A stretch of 53,801 bases of DNA from an uncultured Lachnospiraceae bacterium (GTDB taxonomy: Bacteria; Bacillota; Clostridia; Lachnospirales; Lachnospiraceae). Under the pieces are notes generated by a model. The model searched no databases and was not told the DNA's origin. It saw nothing but the letters and a program-made list of their open reading frames with translations. Location: the NCBI GenBank assembly GCA_947174495.1, contig CAMWJC010000014.1:1-53801 (forward strand), written 5' to 3'. Position numbers and translations under genes: made by a program. Shown in pieces: positions 1-53,801 of the stretch (positions are counted from its first letter, which is position 1; each line of letters starts with the position of its first letter).

Positions 1-94
1 ACAATTCGCGAACGCTTTATCGAGCGTGTTGACGAGAGGCTTTCTTTTCATCGGAACGGATGTCTCGCATATGCGTACCCCAGCTAAACGTTAA
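1..94 (+). mobile_element. Structured repeat, copy A (right end only, cut by window edge)
   Basis: Bases 1-94 match 12539-12631 of copy B: the conserved loop text ACAATTCGCGAACGCTTTAT, one arm of the second hairpin (TTTTCATCGGAAC) and the terminal CTAAACGTTAA at 84-94. The left partner arm lies outside the window. The copy ends 21 bp from the stop codon of the glucosaminidase gene. No coding potential is seen. Confidence 0.85.
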
Positions 95-3085: not shown

Positions 3086-3163
3086 TGGTATCCTCTTATC
3101 TGTCTATTTCAGGGTGTTTGTTTACATAATACACCTTACTATATTCAAAAAATTATGTCAACC

Positions 3164-3212
3164 AAAAAAGGGAATCTCGAACAGGAACTCTTGTTCCGTC
3201 GATATCCCCTTT
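3164..3212 (-). terminator. Terminator after the phosphoribosyltransferase-like gene
   Basis: Read on the minus strand, AAAGGGGATATCGA pairs with TCGAGATTCCCTTT around an inner GGAAC-aaga-GTTCC hairpin and is followed by a T tract. It lies between the stop at 3272 and the glucosaminidase start, so it should end the upstream transcript. Confidence 0.75.
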
Positions 3213-3271
3213 ATTGCATTTTTATATAATTTCCTACAACTTATTTCCGGTCAGACCAAATCTCTGTAAGA

Positions 3272-3913
3272 TTAATTGATTCTTGAATATCCAAACCCGT
3301 TTGCCAGTGCATCAATCGGCTGCTTCTCTTTGCATAAGCTGCATCCTTCTGGATTGAATGCCTTATAATCCGGAATATCCGCAATTGTGAACAGTGATTT
3401 AATAGGAATTCCCATAGCGCTGTTTGCCGCGCTGAACACAGCGCTGATACCGCTGATGGTTGCCCCATAATAACTAAGTGCCTGTCCAACCTTCACAATT
3501 GTCTGTCCGGTCGTTGCGGAAGCAAGTAAAAGCAGTACGTTCTTTCCTTTTATCATCGGAATATAATTTTCCCGGAACAAAATCTGCCCGGAATTTGCAT
3601 ACTCCGGCGTAATAATATAAATCGTATTATGAGCATTCATGGAATAAACGCCTGCCCTTGTCAATTCCTCTGCCAAAAATGCTCCGATGATTTCACAACC
3701 GTCTATGCAGACGATGGTATCTACCACGGTGGAAACCGAAATCTGTCCCCCCAGTTCCTTTGCAACCATTAGCGCCTCGTTCAATCTGGATTTCAGGGTT
3801 GTCATATCCAGAAAATAATTTACATGGGAATTGGGTGTTACAAAGTGTCCGGGTATTGCTTTCAAAATAACATTTGGATGTGCTTTCGAGCGAATTCTTA
3901 TCATGTCCTGCAT
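3272..3913 (-). CDS. Divergent orotate phosphoribosyltransferase-like protein
   Basis: A 213-residue protein of the type I phosphoribosyltransferase fold. The order of segments (VDTIVCIDGCEIIGAFLAEEL, then GKNVLLLLASATTGQTI) follows the orotate phosphoribosyltransferase plan. The PRPP loop normally reads like VLVVDDVITTGGS; here the two acidic residues are replaced (LLASATTGQ), so catalysis on PRPP is doubtful and the protein may be a sensor or a different enzyme. The C-terminal part has two close cysteines (CSLC). The start at 3913 is supported by AGGAGG eight bases upstream. It stands alone between a terminator and a divergent gene. Fold assignment is good; activity is uncertain. Confidence 0.75.
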   Translation of the reverse strand: MQDMIRIRSKAHPNVILKAIPGHFVTPNSHVNYFLDMTTLKSRLNEALMVAKELGGQISVSTVVDTIVCIDGCEIIGAFLAEELTRAGVYSMNAHNTIYIITPEYANSGQILFRENYIPMIKGKNVLLLLASATTGQTIVKVGQALSYYGATISGISAVFSAANSAMGIPIKSLFTIADIPDYKAFNPEGCSLCKEKQPIDALANGFGYSRIN

Positions 3914-5957: not shown

Positions 5958-6476
5958 TCACTCCTCTTGCTTAATCCATGATATGGTTCCTAATTTCTTT
6001 TTCATTCGTACAAGGGTTCCCTGAAAAGGTTCAGAGATCACCTCCAGATCATCCATAAACGCTTCCATAAATGCAAATCCCATCCCAGACCGATCCATGT
6101 CCGGCCTGGTCGTAAAAAGAGGTTCCATTGCCTGGTCAATGTCTGCAATTCCCTTCCCAGTATCCTGTACTTCTACATGCAGTACATCTTCTACAATCTT
6201 GCAGTGCAGATACACCTGATTTTTCCCTTTCTGCCCAGTCGCTCCCAGAAACTCTTCATCGTAGCCATGAATGATTGCATTGGTCACTGCTTCCGAAACA
6301 GCTGTCTTAATATCTGAAATTTCTTCTACTGTAGGATTCAGCGGAGTTACAAATGCTGCCACTGCAACCCTTGCAAATGCCTCGTTCACCGAAACAGCGT
6401 CAAAGGACAACCGCATTTCATTCTCCAAAAGAGTATTCCTTTTCATTTCATTTTTAATTTTCTGTTCTGTCTCCAT
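5958..6476 (-). CDS. spoIIAB: Anti-sigma F factor and kinase SpoIIAB
   Basis: A 172-residue GHKL-type ATPase that binds SigF and phosphorylates SpoIIAA. The N box is E62-A-V-T-N66, the G1 box D105-TGKGI and the G2 box RSGMGFAFM near 129-137. It is about 25 residues longer than the Bacillus protein, partly through an N-terminal extension (METEQKIKNEMKRN) and a C-terminal tail, so a start at the internal Met-11 is possible. It sits between spoIIAA and sigF. Confidence 0.96.
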   Translation of the reverse strand: METEQKIKNEMKRNTLLENEMRLSFDAVSVNEAFARVAVAAFVTPLNPTVEEISDIKTAVSEAVTNAIIHGYDEEFLGATGQKGKNQVYLHCKIVEDVLHVEVQDTGKGIADIDQAMEPLFTTRPDMDRSGMGFAFMEAFMDDLEVISEPFQGTLVRMKKKLGTISWIKQEE

Positions 6477-12205: not shown

Positions 12206-12631
12206 AATTTTCTATGCTGGGTTTCAGGGATTAATGCGAAAACCCGGATAGAATCAAATTCTACGTCACCGCGCTTCCGTTCTACAAAAAGCGTAATGGT
12301 GCTAAGTTCGTTAAGAACCTCACTAAGCACCAACGCTTTTTGAAGGGTTCCTTAAGAATTTGATTTCTATCCGGGTTAAATTATTGGCTGACGGAAAACC
12401 AGCTAAGGACTCAACTATAGTCACCCAATCCACTGTCTGGCTATTTGTAAAAAGTGGAACATTCGACTTTAGTGAAGTTACCAGTTGGGCGTTGCATTAT
12501 TTGACAGCCCAGCTCCGATGAAAAAAATCCTTGAGGAAACAATTCGCGAACGCTTTATCGAGCGTGTTGACGAAAGGATTTCTTTTCATCGGAGCGGACG
12601 TCCTACCATGTATACCCCATCTAAACGTTAA
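12206..12631 (+). mobile_element. Structured repeat, copy B (full length, left terminus worn)
   Basis: About 426 bp without coding potential. Hairpin 1: AACCCGGATAGAATCAAATT at 12241 pairs with 12356-12377 (one bulged base). Inside it, AAAAAGCGT pairs with ACGCTTTTT and TGGTGC with GCACCA. A conserved central region spans 12378-12510. Hairpin 2: 12512-12530 pairs with 12576-12595, with an inner CGCT/AGCG hairpin in the loop. The right end is CTAAACGTTAA (12621-12631), 25 bp from the valS stop. The left 11-bp terminus is no longer recognisable, but GCTnnGTTTCA matches copy C. It also fills most of the 587-bp gap between valS and the next gene. Confidence 0.88.
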
Positions 12632-15742: not shown

Positions 15743-15778
15743 GACAGATTTTCTCCAAAAATACTGTTCCCATACAAA

Positions 15779-15839
15779 ATGATGCAAAAATGATGCAACT
15801 TTGATGCTATTATGATGCAAAAATGATGCAACTTTGATG
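15779..15839 (+). repeat. Phased TGATGCAA repeats upstream of the exosortase operon
   Basis: Two identical 28-bp copies (15779-15806 and 15812-15839) start 33 bp apart. Each copy contains TGATGCAA twice, 11 bp apart, and ends in CTTTGATG. All spacings are multiples of 11 bp, so the boxes lie on one DNA face. The last TTGATG (15834) could be a -35 box with TAGATA at 15856. Likely operator for an unknown regulator. Confidence 0.65.
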
Positions 15840-35393: not shown

Positions 35394-35490
35394 TTGCTAT
35401 GCTTCATTTTAAGGGATATTTACTGGGAAATAAGAATCTTCCTATCTATAACTCAATGGACGCAATGTCCTGCAAGTCGACCTTATGTAC

Positions 35491-35529
35491 AAAAAAGGTG
35501 CTTTTGAGTCTATAACTCAAAAACACCTT
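35491..35529 (-). terminator. Terminator of the DUF4854-like lipoprotein gene
   Basis: AAGGTGTTTTTGAG pairs with CTCAAAAGCACCTT and is followed by TTTTTTG on the minus strand, 24 bp after the stop. CTATAACTCAA occurs here and again 63 bp to the left. Confidence 0.85.
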
Positions 35530-35552
35530 CTTGATTACGATAAAACTGTTGC

Positions 35553-36137
35553 TTACTGCGCCTTAAAAGACTTTTCAACAAGCAAATTACCTTCTCCGTC
35601 CAGATACCGTACAATAACCGTACATGCACCCTCCTGACCGATTGCTTCATCGAAAAATTCTGCCTGTACTTCAAAGACAGCATCCATACTCTCAAGCGAT
35701 GCATCAAGCTGATCTACTACATCATCCACTAATTCCAAGCCAGGACCATACTGATAGGTCATTATAAAATCATTACCCTTTGCCTCAATGTTCATAGACA
35801 TTTCCGAATCTGATACAGCTGAAGCCCGTTCTTCATAATTTGCCTTGACCTCAGGTTGATTGAAATAATCCTCAACAGTCTTATAATCACCTGCTTCTGC
35901 TTCTGCCTCAGATTCCACTTCCGGCTCTGCCTCAGGTTCTGCTTCCGGCTCTGTCTCAGGTTCCGCTTCTGGCTCTGCCTCAGGTTCTACCTGATTTTCA
36001 TCTTCCGTTCCTGCTGTTTCTTCCACTTTGTCAGCATCTGACGGTACATCTGCTTCCTTAGACCCGCATGCGCTCATGGATAATGCCATTACCATAACTG
36101 CTGTTAATACAATTGATTTTAATGTTTTCCTTTTCAT
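35553..36137 (-). CDS. Lipoprotein with Glu-Pro repeats and DUF4854-like domain
   Basis: A 194-residue lipoprotein. The signal sequence ends in the lipobox SMSACGSKE, with the lipidated cysteine near residue 23. Residues 45-80 are an EPEAEP/EAEAE repeat. The C-terminal 105 residues (EDYFNQPEVKANYEER to EKSFKAQ) are a paralogue of the LysM protein's C-terminal domain; shared landmarks are AKGND, DEAIGxxGA and VRYLD. Two adjacent genes thus display the same domain on different anchors (lipid versus LysM). It has its own promoter and terminator. Confidence 0.88.
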   Translation of the reverse strand: MKRKTLKSIVLTAVMVMALSMSACGSKEADVPSDADKVEETAGTEDENQVEPEAEPEAEPETEPEAEPEAEPEVESEAEAEAGDYKTVEDYFNQPEVKANYEERASAVSDSEMSMNIEAKGNDFIMTYQYGPGLELVDDVVDQLDASLESMDAVFEVQAEFFDEAIGQEGACTVIVRYLDGEGNLLVEKSFKAQ

Positions 36138-36204
36138 AATATACTCCTTTTTCTCAAAAAATCTCCACATTTATTTTAAACCTGTGGAGTTCTCGCAAAA
36201 AGAA

Positions 36205-36233
36205 ATTTTACATAGAGTTCTGGTCTTTGTCAA
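36205..36233 (-). promoter_or_regulatory. Promoter of the lipoprotein gene
   Basis: Minus strand TTGACA (36228-36233), 17-bp spacer, TAAAAT (36205-36210), about 68 bp before the start codon. Confidence 0.75.
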
Positions 36234-36250
36234 TATCAAAAATTATTACG

Positions 36251-36276
36251 TTAACATTTAGCCTGGGTATGTAATG
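36251..36276 (-). mobile_element. Isolated end of the structured repeat
   Basis: TTAACATTTAG (one mismatch to the repeat terminus) followed by CCTGGGTATGTAATG, which matches the subterminal GGGGTATGCGTATG of other copies. No hairpin arms follow, so it is a remnant. It lies between the lipoprotein promoter and the glgP terminator hairpin. Confidence 0.55.
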
Positions 36277-36287
36277 TAACCACAAGA

Positions 36288-44010: not shown

Positions 44011-44437
44011 TTAACGTTTAGTTAGGGAATGCGTATGTGAAACGGCCGCACAGAATAAAATAAATCCTACGTCACCACGCTTGATAAAGCGTGCGCGAAT
44101 TGGTTCCTTAAGGATTTATTTTATTCTGTGCTGGGTTGTTGAATGACGCAAAGCACAACTGGCAACTTCACTAAGGTCGAAAGTTCCACTTTTTAACAAA
44201 TAGCCAGACAGTGGGTTGGGCGGCTATAGTGGAGTTTTTAGCAGGTTTTCTGTTAGCCAATAATTTAACCCGGATAGAAATCAAATTCTTTAGGAGCCCT
44301 TTAAAAAGCGTCAGCACTTAGTGAGGTTTTTTCGAACTTAGTGCTGCTACGCTTTTTATAGAACGAGAGTGGGGCGACGTAGAATTTGATTCTATCCGGG
44401 TTTTCATATTTCTATTTGAAACTAAGCTAAACGTTAA
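44011..44437 (-). mobile_element. Structured repeat, copy C (complete, 427 bp)
   Basis: Complete copy with perfect inverted ends TTAACGTTTAG (44011-44021) and CTAAACGTTAA (44427-44437). In plus-strand order: hairpin 2 with a perfect 20-bp stem (44049-44068 with 44111-44130) and inner CACGCTT-gata-AAGCGTG; a central region; hairpin 1 (44267-44288 with 44382-44402) with inner AAAAAGCGT/ACGCTTTTT and CAGCAC/GTGCTG. Opposite orientation to copy B. It occupies most of the 577-bp gap between the MATE gene and the PadR operon's last gene, ending 13 bp from that stop. No coding potential. Confidence 0.92.
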
Positions 44438-51237: not shown

Positions 51238-51458
51238 ATGCAGGGCTATAACATAATCGTAGTATTTTGTGAAAATGCCTCCTTGAAGTTTATGTTGGAA
51301 GGCTGAATAAAACAGTAGATGTTTATGGAAATGAAAACGAATTATATTGGTCAACATTAGATCATGACTTTTTTGATGCAGCAAAATATGCGGGAGAAGG
51401 AAACATTGGACACATTATGATGCAGATTAAAAAGCATGAAAAAGAATTACTGAAATAA
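51238..51458 (+). pseudogene. Damaged copy 1 of a small gene (duplicate of 53475-53745)
   Basis: Starts at an ATG with GGAGG and begins MQGYNIIVVFCEN, then shifts frame. Compared with the second copy it has lost 50 bp between two TGAAAA microhomologies (at about 51283). The C-terminal part (VYGNENELYWSTLDHDFFDA) is still readable in another frame. TTAACGTTTAG follows two bases after the stop. Function unknown. Confidence 0.75.
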
Positions 51459-51459
51459 A

Positions 51460-51487
51460 TTAACGTTTAGCGGGGGTATGCGTATGC
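51460..51487 (-). mobile_element. Isolated end of the structured repeat
   Basis: Perfect TTAACGTTTAG (51460-51470) followed by CGGGGGTATGCGTATGC, as in copies A and C. The rest of the element is missing. It lies one base after the stop of the damaged small gene. Confidence 0.75.
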
Positions 51488-51514
51488 AAAACCCAGTTGG
51501 AAACATCCAGAGAG

Positions 51515-53474: not shown

Positions 53475-53745
53475 ATGCAGGGATATAACATCATCGTAGT
53501 ATTTTGTGAAAATACTGATGTGCAAAAGAAGATTGATGGATTTTACATATTATTTTGAAAACTGCCTCCTTGAAGTTTATGTTGGAAAGCTGAATAAAAC
53601 AGTAGATGTTTATGGAAATGAAAACGAATTATATTGGTCAACATTAGATCATGACTTTTTTGATGCAGCAAAATATGCGAGAGAAGGAAACATTGGACAC
53701 ATTATGATGCAGATTGAAAAGCATCAAAAAGAATTACTGAAATAA
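53475..53745 (+). pseudogene. Damaged copy 2 of a small gene
   Basis: From an ATG at 53475 it begins MQGYNIIVVFCENTDVQKK and stops at a TGA after 28 residues. Beyond a single-base frameshift near ATATTATTTT the frame ENCLLEVYVGKLNKTVDVYG continues to the stop at 53745. A separate GTG frame (53506-53745, 79 residues) is possible. With one base removed the gene would code about 89 residues. Function unknown; it is duplicated at 51238. Confidence 0.6.
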
Positions 53746-53746
53746 T

Positions 53747-53801
53747 TTAACGTTTAGCTAGGTAACGGAGATTAATATAAAAACCCGGATAGAATCAAAT
53801 T
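53747..53801 (+). mobile_element. Structured repeat, copy D (left end only, cut by window edge)
   Basis: TTAACGTTTAG (53747-53757), then GCTAGG and GATTAATAT, then AACCCGGATAGAATCAAATT, the left arm of hairpin 1, running to the window end. Same orientation as copies A and B. It starts one base after the stop at 53745. Confidence 0.85.

Follow-up and report, generated by a model that had tools for sequence, protein, structure and literature searches.

A gene-less element built from two inverted halves

The window analyzed here is a 53,801-nt stretch of DNA, one contig of the 2.89-Mb draft genome of an uncultured Lachnospiraceae bacterium (genome G000; 112 contigs, 78.3% complete). At positions 44011 to 44437 lies a 427-bp element (copy C), and a first-pass annotation had described two full copies of it, along with two that are truncated at the contig edges, plus two lone ends, all with common termini. 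A scan for the terminal motif TTAACGTTTAG at up to one mismatch confirmed this account, as the motif occurs seven times in the window, at those six features, whereas 100 shuffled sequences contain it 0.76 times on average and never more than 3 times. The features are listed below, where R1 denotes a covariance model built from an alignment (A1) of 14 sequences selected among those already collected.

44011..44437, plus strand: copy C, full element; inverted halves, each ending in TTAACGTTTAG
44011..44021, plus strand: left terminal repeat TTAACGTTTAG of copy C, from the end-motif scan
44427..44437, minus strand: right terminal repeat TTAACGTTTAG of copy C, from the end-motif scan
44048..44131, plus strand: hairpin 1 of copy C, short-tip module; internal loop ACGTC / TCCTTA
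44271..44400, minus strand: hairpin 2 of copy C, long-tip module; R1 match, E 3.6e-26
12206..12631, minus strand: copy B; left end degenerate, 12238-12631 alignable to copy C
12243..12373, plus strand: long-tip module of copy B; R1 match, E 2.1e-28
1..94, minus strand: copy running off the contig edge; end at 84-94
53747..53801, plus strand: copy cut by the contig edge, from the end-motif scan
51460..51494, plus strand: lone end; alignment with the relative G032 restarts at 51495
36251..36283, plus strand: lone end with one mismatch; forms the edge of a 797-bp stretch, 35487-36283

Within each half of the element, a spacer separates the terminal repeat from a hairpin. Loci on the minus strand aligned with other loci even before being turned, which showed each half to be an inverted version of the other, and further comparisons agreed. 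The two large hairpins of the first-pass annotation were borne out by folding copy C as single-stranded DNA (z = -11.6; none of 100 shuffled sequences folded as well). Beyond that account, we found that the element is made of two inverted halves and that both hairpins are versions of one module, hairpin 1 with a short tip and hairpin 2 with a long tip. The hairpin comprises a stem of ~20 pairs (P1), the asymmetric loop ACGTC / TCCTTA, and an inner stem with three covarying pairs. Model R1 also matches hairpin 1 of copy C, at positions 1538-1619 of locus L001 (window 44048-44129). An exact TTAACGTTTAG end is found in copy B solely at 12621-12631. The lone end at 51460-51494 is probably a deletion remnant; going by coordinates only, G032 has a copy of the element near the matching point. 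The 797-bp stretch has no G032 match at that place, and the gap ends in the lone end at 36251. Separately, an element end comes directly after either of two similar gene ends in the window, which lie at 51260-51459 and 53500-53746.

As annotated, copy C contains no plausible gene. Its four overlapping open reading frames (ORFs) of at least 30 aa reach at most 51 aa, and the longest extends beyond the element end. A known Rfam RNA family was ruled out, since no match at gathering score was obtained across the window and loci L002-L003; a permissive search of seven loci returned three matches, all far below gathering scores.

Dispersal of the element and of its hairpin module

Searched with copy C, the own genome yielded 65 local matches. 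About a third of them cover the 427 bp completely or for the most part, and these, copy C itself excluded, are 73 to 88% identical to it. Exact TTAACGTTTAG occurs 61 times in this genome, compared with 7 times for a control. The copies have common ends and unrelated flanks, and shorter derivatives with the same TTAACGTTTAG ends exist (e.g., at L027). The marked stretch is one among dozens of dispersed, gene-less palindromic copies in its genome. Copies of the window subfamily mostly lie between AAA and TTT, many with TTAA on both sides, and TTAA may be their target or their terminus. No copy-specific target duplication was detected in 21 copies (those with both ends recognized among 32 G000 and G032 loci), and no promoter rule was seen across 47 ends. 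From the precise common ends of the dispersed copies and the same-ended derivatives of varying length, we infer that the window subfamily is mobile.

Comparison with G032 revealed one shared site at which the element is oriented oppositely in the two genomes, between flanks that are 91 to 92% identical, and two further shared sites where, by alignment coordinates, half of the element or its tip differs. Empty sites, which the first-pass annotation had proposed as a check, did not emerge from the comparison of G032 with G000, including a search of G000 with five joined pairs of G032 flanks. The site corresponding to L390 also has the element, that of L388 has a remnant plus other sequence, L031 and L384 were matched by one flank only, and L380 gave no usable match. 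Two other repeats were observed. At L400, ~1670-1900 (own genome, C4), there is a different palindromic repeat with ends CAGTTCAGCCA / TGGCTGAACTG, where G032 has an element of the window type. A short dispersed sequence around ATGATGCAACTATGATGC occurs at over ten places on many contigs of the own genome, one of them at window 15777-15819.

The first-pass annotation had also proposed searching relatives with copy C, building a covariance model, and counting copies per genome, and these searches showed that the family is not confined to the own genome. Copy C matched 16 of 60 genomes, namely, its own, 14 relatives of the same genus, and one member of another family, in which the 24-base match is probably due to chance. 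Nearly all of the matches listed for relatives other than G032 were to hairpin 2 alone. Of 295 genomes from the order, 26 (including the own genome) contained a module match to R1; these fall within 13 of 130 genera, and every one belongs to the window's family. As 11 candidates were scored per genome, copy counts from this search are lower bounds. With more candidates scored, ten chosen carriers had 6 to 79 module matches each at E 0.001. A second covariance model (alignment A2, 78 matches from 62 chosen loci) detected the module in 5 of 398 genomes across the phylum, own included. Four belong to the window's family and the fifth, with seven module matches, to another class. A motif scan of named genomes found at least 120 stretches with the module motif. 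Among the 80 listed, titles were mostly Lachnospiraceae or genera such as Eisenbergiella, Roseburia, Butyrivibrio, and Oribacterium, and some were metagenome-assembled genomes with other titles. Carriage by phages or plasmids was considered and not found, with no match to the module motif or the short-tip motif in viral contigs and none to copy C in plasmids and phages.

Most module matches (72 of 83) lie outside any ORF of at least 90 aa; this count covers 83 of 96 matches, 13 having been dropped by hand (cut-off or partial matches, some of them close to a locus end, a nested double, and a few by oversight). Among the neighbors listed, the genes appear by eye to be ordinary chromosomal ones. 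The same pair of sugar-nucleotide genes (by eye) flanks the module at L071 and L072, loci from two congeneric species, and at L065 the module is adjoined by simple tandem repeats of the acggactcctagtcacttttc type.

The module is enclosed by different ends in different repeats. In the window subfamily the ends are TTAACGTTTAG, in Lachnospiraceae bacterium CE91-St56 they are GGGTGYAGATAAAAAAG, at L038 and in genome G035 they are GTTACTTTTCAC, and at L070 and L115 a GCGAAACTC repeat was seen by eye. Module copies in genome G177 are mostly without a common outer repeat beyond P1. In genome G321, inverted repeats outside P1 look unique to each copy (five copies, three of them clear), which might hint at insertion into existing hairpins. 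At L209, by eye, a module sits within the tip of a second module at two places of one contig, 3128-3430 and 6064-6367. Conversely, TTAACGTTTAG ends surround elements without the module at L355, L356, and L370 (by eye), and at L359 and L367 (own genome, from 1501) they accompany other large hairpins that by eye are unrelated to the module. No target duplications were found in 52 module copies from G177, G035, G063, and G321 at the boundaries used. That the module is common to repeat families with different ends argues that it travels as cargo. The TTAACGTTTAG-ended hairpin family of the first-pass annotation is real, but it was drawn too narrowly, TTAACGTTTAG being one of several end types.

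Movement is most evident in CE91-St56, whose complete genome has 30 module matches. The palindromes could be extended to 234 to 309 bp in 27 of these, with an early stop in the other three. At up to two mismatches, GGGTGYAGATAAAAAAG occurs 48 and 53 times, compared with 5 and 3 times for the control. Among the 21 of 30 copies with both ends recognized, 9-bp direct repeats are perfect in 8 and have at most two mismatches in 13, compared with 0.7% of 420 mispaired flanks. Outward of the ends, a strong promoter-like pair has its -35 element at 14 to 18 nt in 14 of 49 cases and at exactly 16 nt in 9, against a background at the same 49 ends of 26 promoter-like matches over 220 positions (40 to 259 nt); the promoter distance for TnGBS, ISLre2, and several ISKra4 elements is reportedly 15 to 17 bp. 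The CE91-St56 repeats have moved, with duplications and a promoter spacing like those of transposases of the TnGBS/ISLre2 type. The earlier statement that the element could be mobile only in trans holds if it moves, which target duplications show for the CE91-St56 relatives and which is an extrapolation for the window.

Possible movers were sought near these ends. UPF0236 (PF06782), which we take to be the ISLre2 transposase, was found in 1 of 15 carriers, CE91-St56, and its gene there has no element ends within 1.5 kb on either side, so that ISLre2 was rejected as the mover. No facing pair of ends 1 to 3 kb apart, as expected of an autonomous element, was present among the places listed for CE91-St56 and the own draft genome, and by eye no transposase was seen beside nine CE91-St56 ends.

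Paired change and the level at which the structure is kept

Base pairs in the module show extensive paired change. Two-sided changes affect 33 of 45 pairs in A1 (14 sequences) and 44 of 45 in the second alignment (77 distinct rows), figures that are inflated by fitting the alignments to a covariance model, a procedure that should not favor A-C over G-U mismatches. None of 500 shuffles reached the observed covariation score; of five covariation measures, one, the number of further pair types in the second alignment, was not above shuffles (139 versus 137.9). Among CE91-St56 copies (18 of the 30, of length 230 to 245 with both ends), those 5 to 8% apart showed 204 two-sided Watson-Crick changes compared with 23 under independence, in 50 comparisons that share sequences. 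In the three comparisons of copies less than 3% apart, 11 changes were one-sided and 1 was two-sided, so arm copying is not instantaneous. One-sided changes followed by quick repair of pairing fit template switching during replication.

In RNA helices, G-U mismatches are expected to far exceed A-C mismatches. Family-wide, we counted 64 G-U and 70 A-C (29 versus 40 in P1 and 35 versus 30 in the core). As a control, the acceptor stems of 11 tRNAs at these loci had 8 G-U and 0 A-C in 77 pairs, a small set filtered to stems with no more than one nonstandard pair in 7. The 18 CE91-St56 copies had more G-T (23) than A-C (14), a mild lean towards RNA. Relative to codirectional neighboring genes, the module pointed the same way in 23 cases and the opposite way in 23 (hand count over the same 83 matches). 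Strand assignment by GC skew gave 84:64 over four sets (p = 0.12), showing no significant replication strand bias overall. Three sets comprised 72, 22, and 24 loci, with pairs and edge matches dropped by hand and skews below 0.05 by script, and the fourth comprised the 30 CE91-St56 copies (19:11), assigned to replichores by hand; the set of 24 loci, mostly from G177, gave 19:5 (p = 0.007, uncorrected). The balance of G-U and A-C, the even orientation, and the overall skew count argue against a strand-specific RNA role, and the structure is apparently kept as a DNA shape. The same mismatch balance could also result from transcription and selection of both strands. The term "structured" in the first-pass annotation is therefore apt as far as strong pairing goes, with the evidence favoring structure at the level of DNA and not RNA.

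These observations bear on several explanations. A structured noncoding RNA, transcribed from the module, acting as a regulator, terminator, or protein-binding RNA and spread by duplication, would account for the very strong covariation, the conserved unpaired motifs, the location of most matches outside ORFs, and the G-T excess in CE91-St56. The family-wide mismatch balance, so different from that of the tRNA stems, together with the lack of orientation bias and of any Rfam match, makes this reading distinctly unlikely in our judgment. Ordinary MITEs, that is, neutral hairpin palindromes kept by template switching around a module without function, agree well with paired change far above independence and with the G-U/A-C balance. 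On such an account, however, template switching should erase unpaired bases, and these persist: facing unpaired A's (an A.A mismatch) are invariant on both sides in all 73 of the 77 sequences that have the region, and a bulged A is conserved at 96%. The persistence of both suggests that the folded module is recognized by some partner. Because the module also recurs in 13 genera and another class between unrelated arms, we regard the neutral account as unlikely.

The repeats are dispersed, mostly intergenic, and in some genomes arranged as inverted hairpin pairs, as REP or REPIN elements mobilized by RAYT (a Y1 tyrosine transposase) would be. Yet Y1_Tnp had no match in 6 of 16 searched carriers, among them G000, G177 (79 module matches), and G063 (44), on which ground a RAYT partner was rejected for the carriers tested, and the hairpins measure ~84 and ~130 nt, compared with 20 to 40 bp for REPs (PMC3733652). 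We consider this origin very improbable, and the first-pass annotation's view that the element is not a REP is well supported. A recombinase-driven invertible hairpin, attC-like or switch-like, would explain the opposite orientation at the one site shared by G000 and G032 and the differing half or tip at the two others. Long inverted halves can invert without a dedicated enzyme, though, and a DDE transposase would be in keeping with the CE91-St56 duplications of 9 bp; such a hairpin also seems highly improbable to us.

The reading that we favor, and judge rather probable, is a non-autonomous, MITE-like palindromic element that is moved in trans, copies one arm from the other, and carries a hairpin module selected as bound DNA cargo. 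A transposase acting in trans would recognize the terminal repeats and move the element, a step that for the TTAACGTTTAG subfamily of the window is presumed. The palindrome arms would change quickly without losing their complementarity as DNA, and the probable reason is template switching, in which one arm serves as template for the other when the hairpin is replicated. The module at the tip would be under selection because a host or transposon factor binds the DNA hairpin, as its invariant unpaired bases suggest, and, being common to differently ended repeat families, it would travel with them as cargo. More tentatively, a module recognized as folded DNA may have entered unrelated palindromic transposon families, in Lachnospiraceae and beyond, whose arms copy each other; we see this wider proposal as possible.

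Where covariation is found, a functional RNA is usually considered proven. In this family the covariation is very strong, and yet G-U and A-C are balanced family-wide, which argues for a DNA-level cause; comparing the two mismatch counts is an easy way of testing other candidate "structured RNAs". The hairpin module also sits inside differently ended repeats of related bacteria, apparently as a DNA shape. If it is indeed bound in its folded form and common to transposons, it would be a novel type of recognition signal, or of cargo, in bacteria common in the gut. Since the CE91-St56 subfamily lands beside promoters, gene expression may be changed.

Relation to known repeat families

The first-pass annotation had called the family undescribed, and this view is supported so far by the absence of an Rfam match and of any description in the titles and abstract openings of open-licence papers on Lachnospiraceae, Roseburia, and Clostridia repeats. 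Two REP surveys contain no words beginning with lachnospir, clostridi, or firmicutes in their main text, nor, in the one checked for it, eubacterium. With REP, BIME, and REPIN sequences the repeat shares extragenic palindromes, inverted pairs, and high copy number, but its multiloop hairpins are much longer. A REP is defined as a palindrome of 20 to 40 bp tagged on one side by GTAG or CGTC (PMC3733652); the ACGTC of the window lies inside the hairpin and not at its foot.

Prokaryotic Mutator-like elements are reported to make duplications of 8 or 9 bp, and TnGBS, ISLre2, and several members of ISKra4 to insert upstream of promoters of the sigma-A type (PMC3942029). The CE91-St56 repeats resemble these elements in their 9-bp duplications and in their insertion upstream of promoter-like sites, and differ in that no transposase gene was found with their ends; the window subfamily differs in having neither the 8- to 9-bp duplication nor the promoter rule. 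Stems kept by template switching with paired substitutions are described for RNA genes (PMC8794818). The paired substitutions across both arms are alike, but the stems here belong to a mobile DNA palindrome. Like MITEs, the repeat is short, has no gene, carries terminal inverted repeats, and occurs in many mostly intergenic copies, with target duplications in the CE91-St56 relatives. Unlike them, it includes a conserved, complex hairpin module that is common to differently ended families, and no parent IS was found. On its size, ends, and copies, and on duplication in the CE91-St56 relatives only, the repeat is filed as MITE-like, a new variant of that class.
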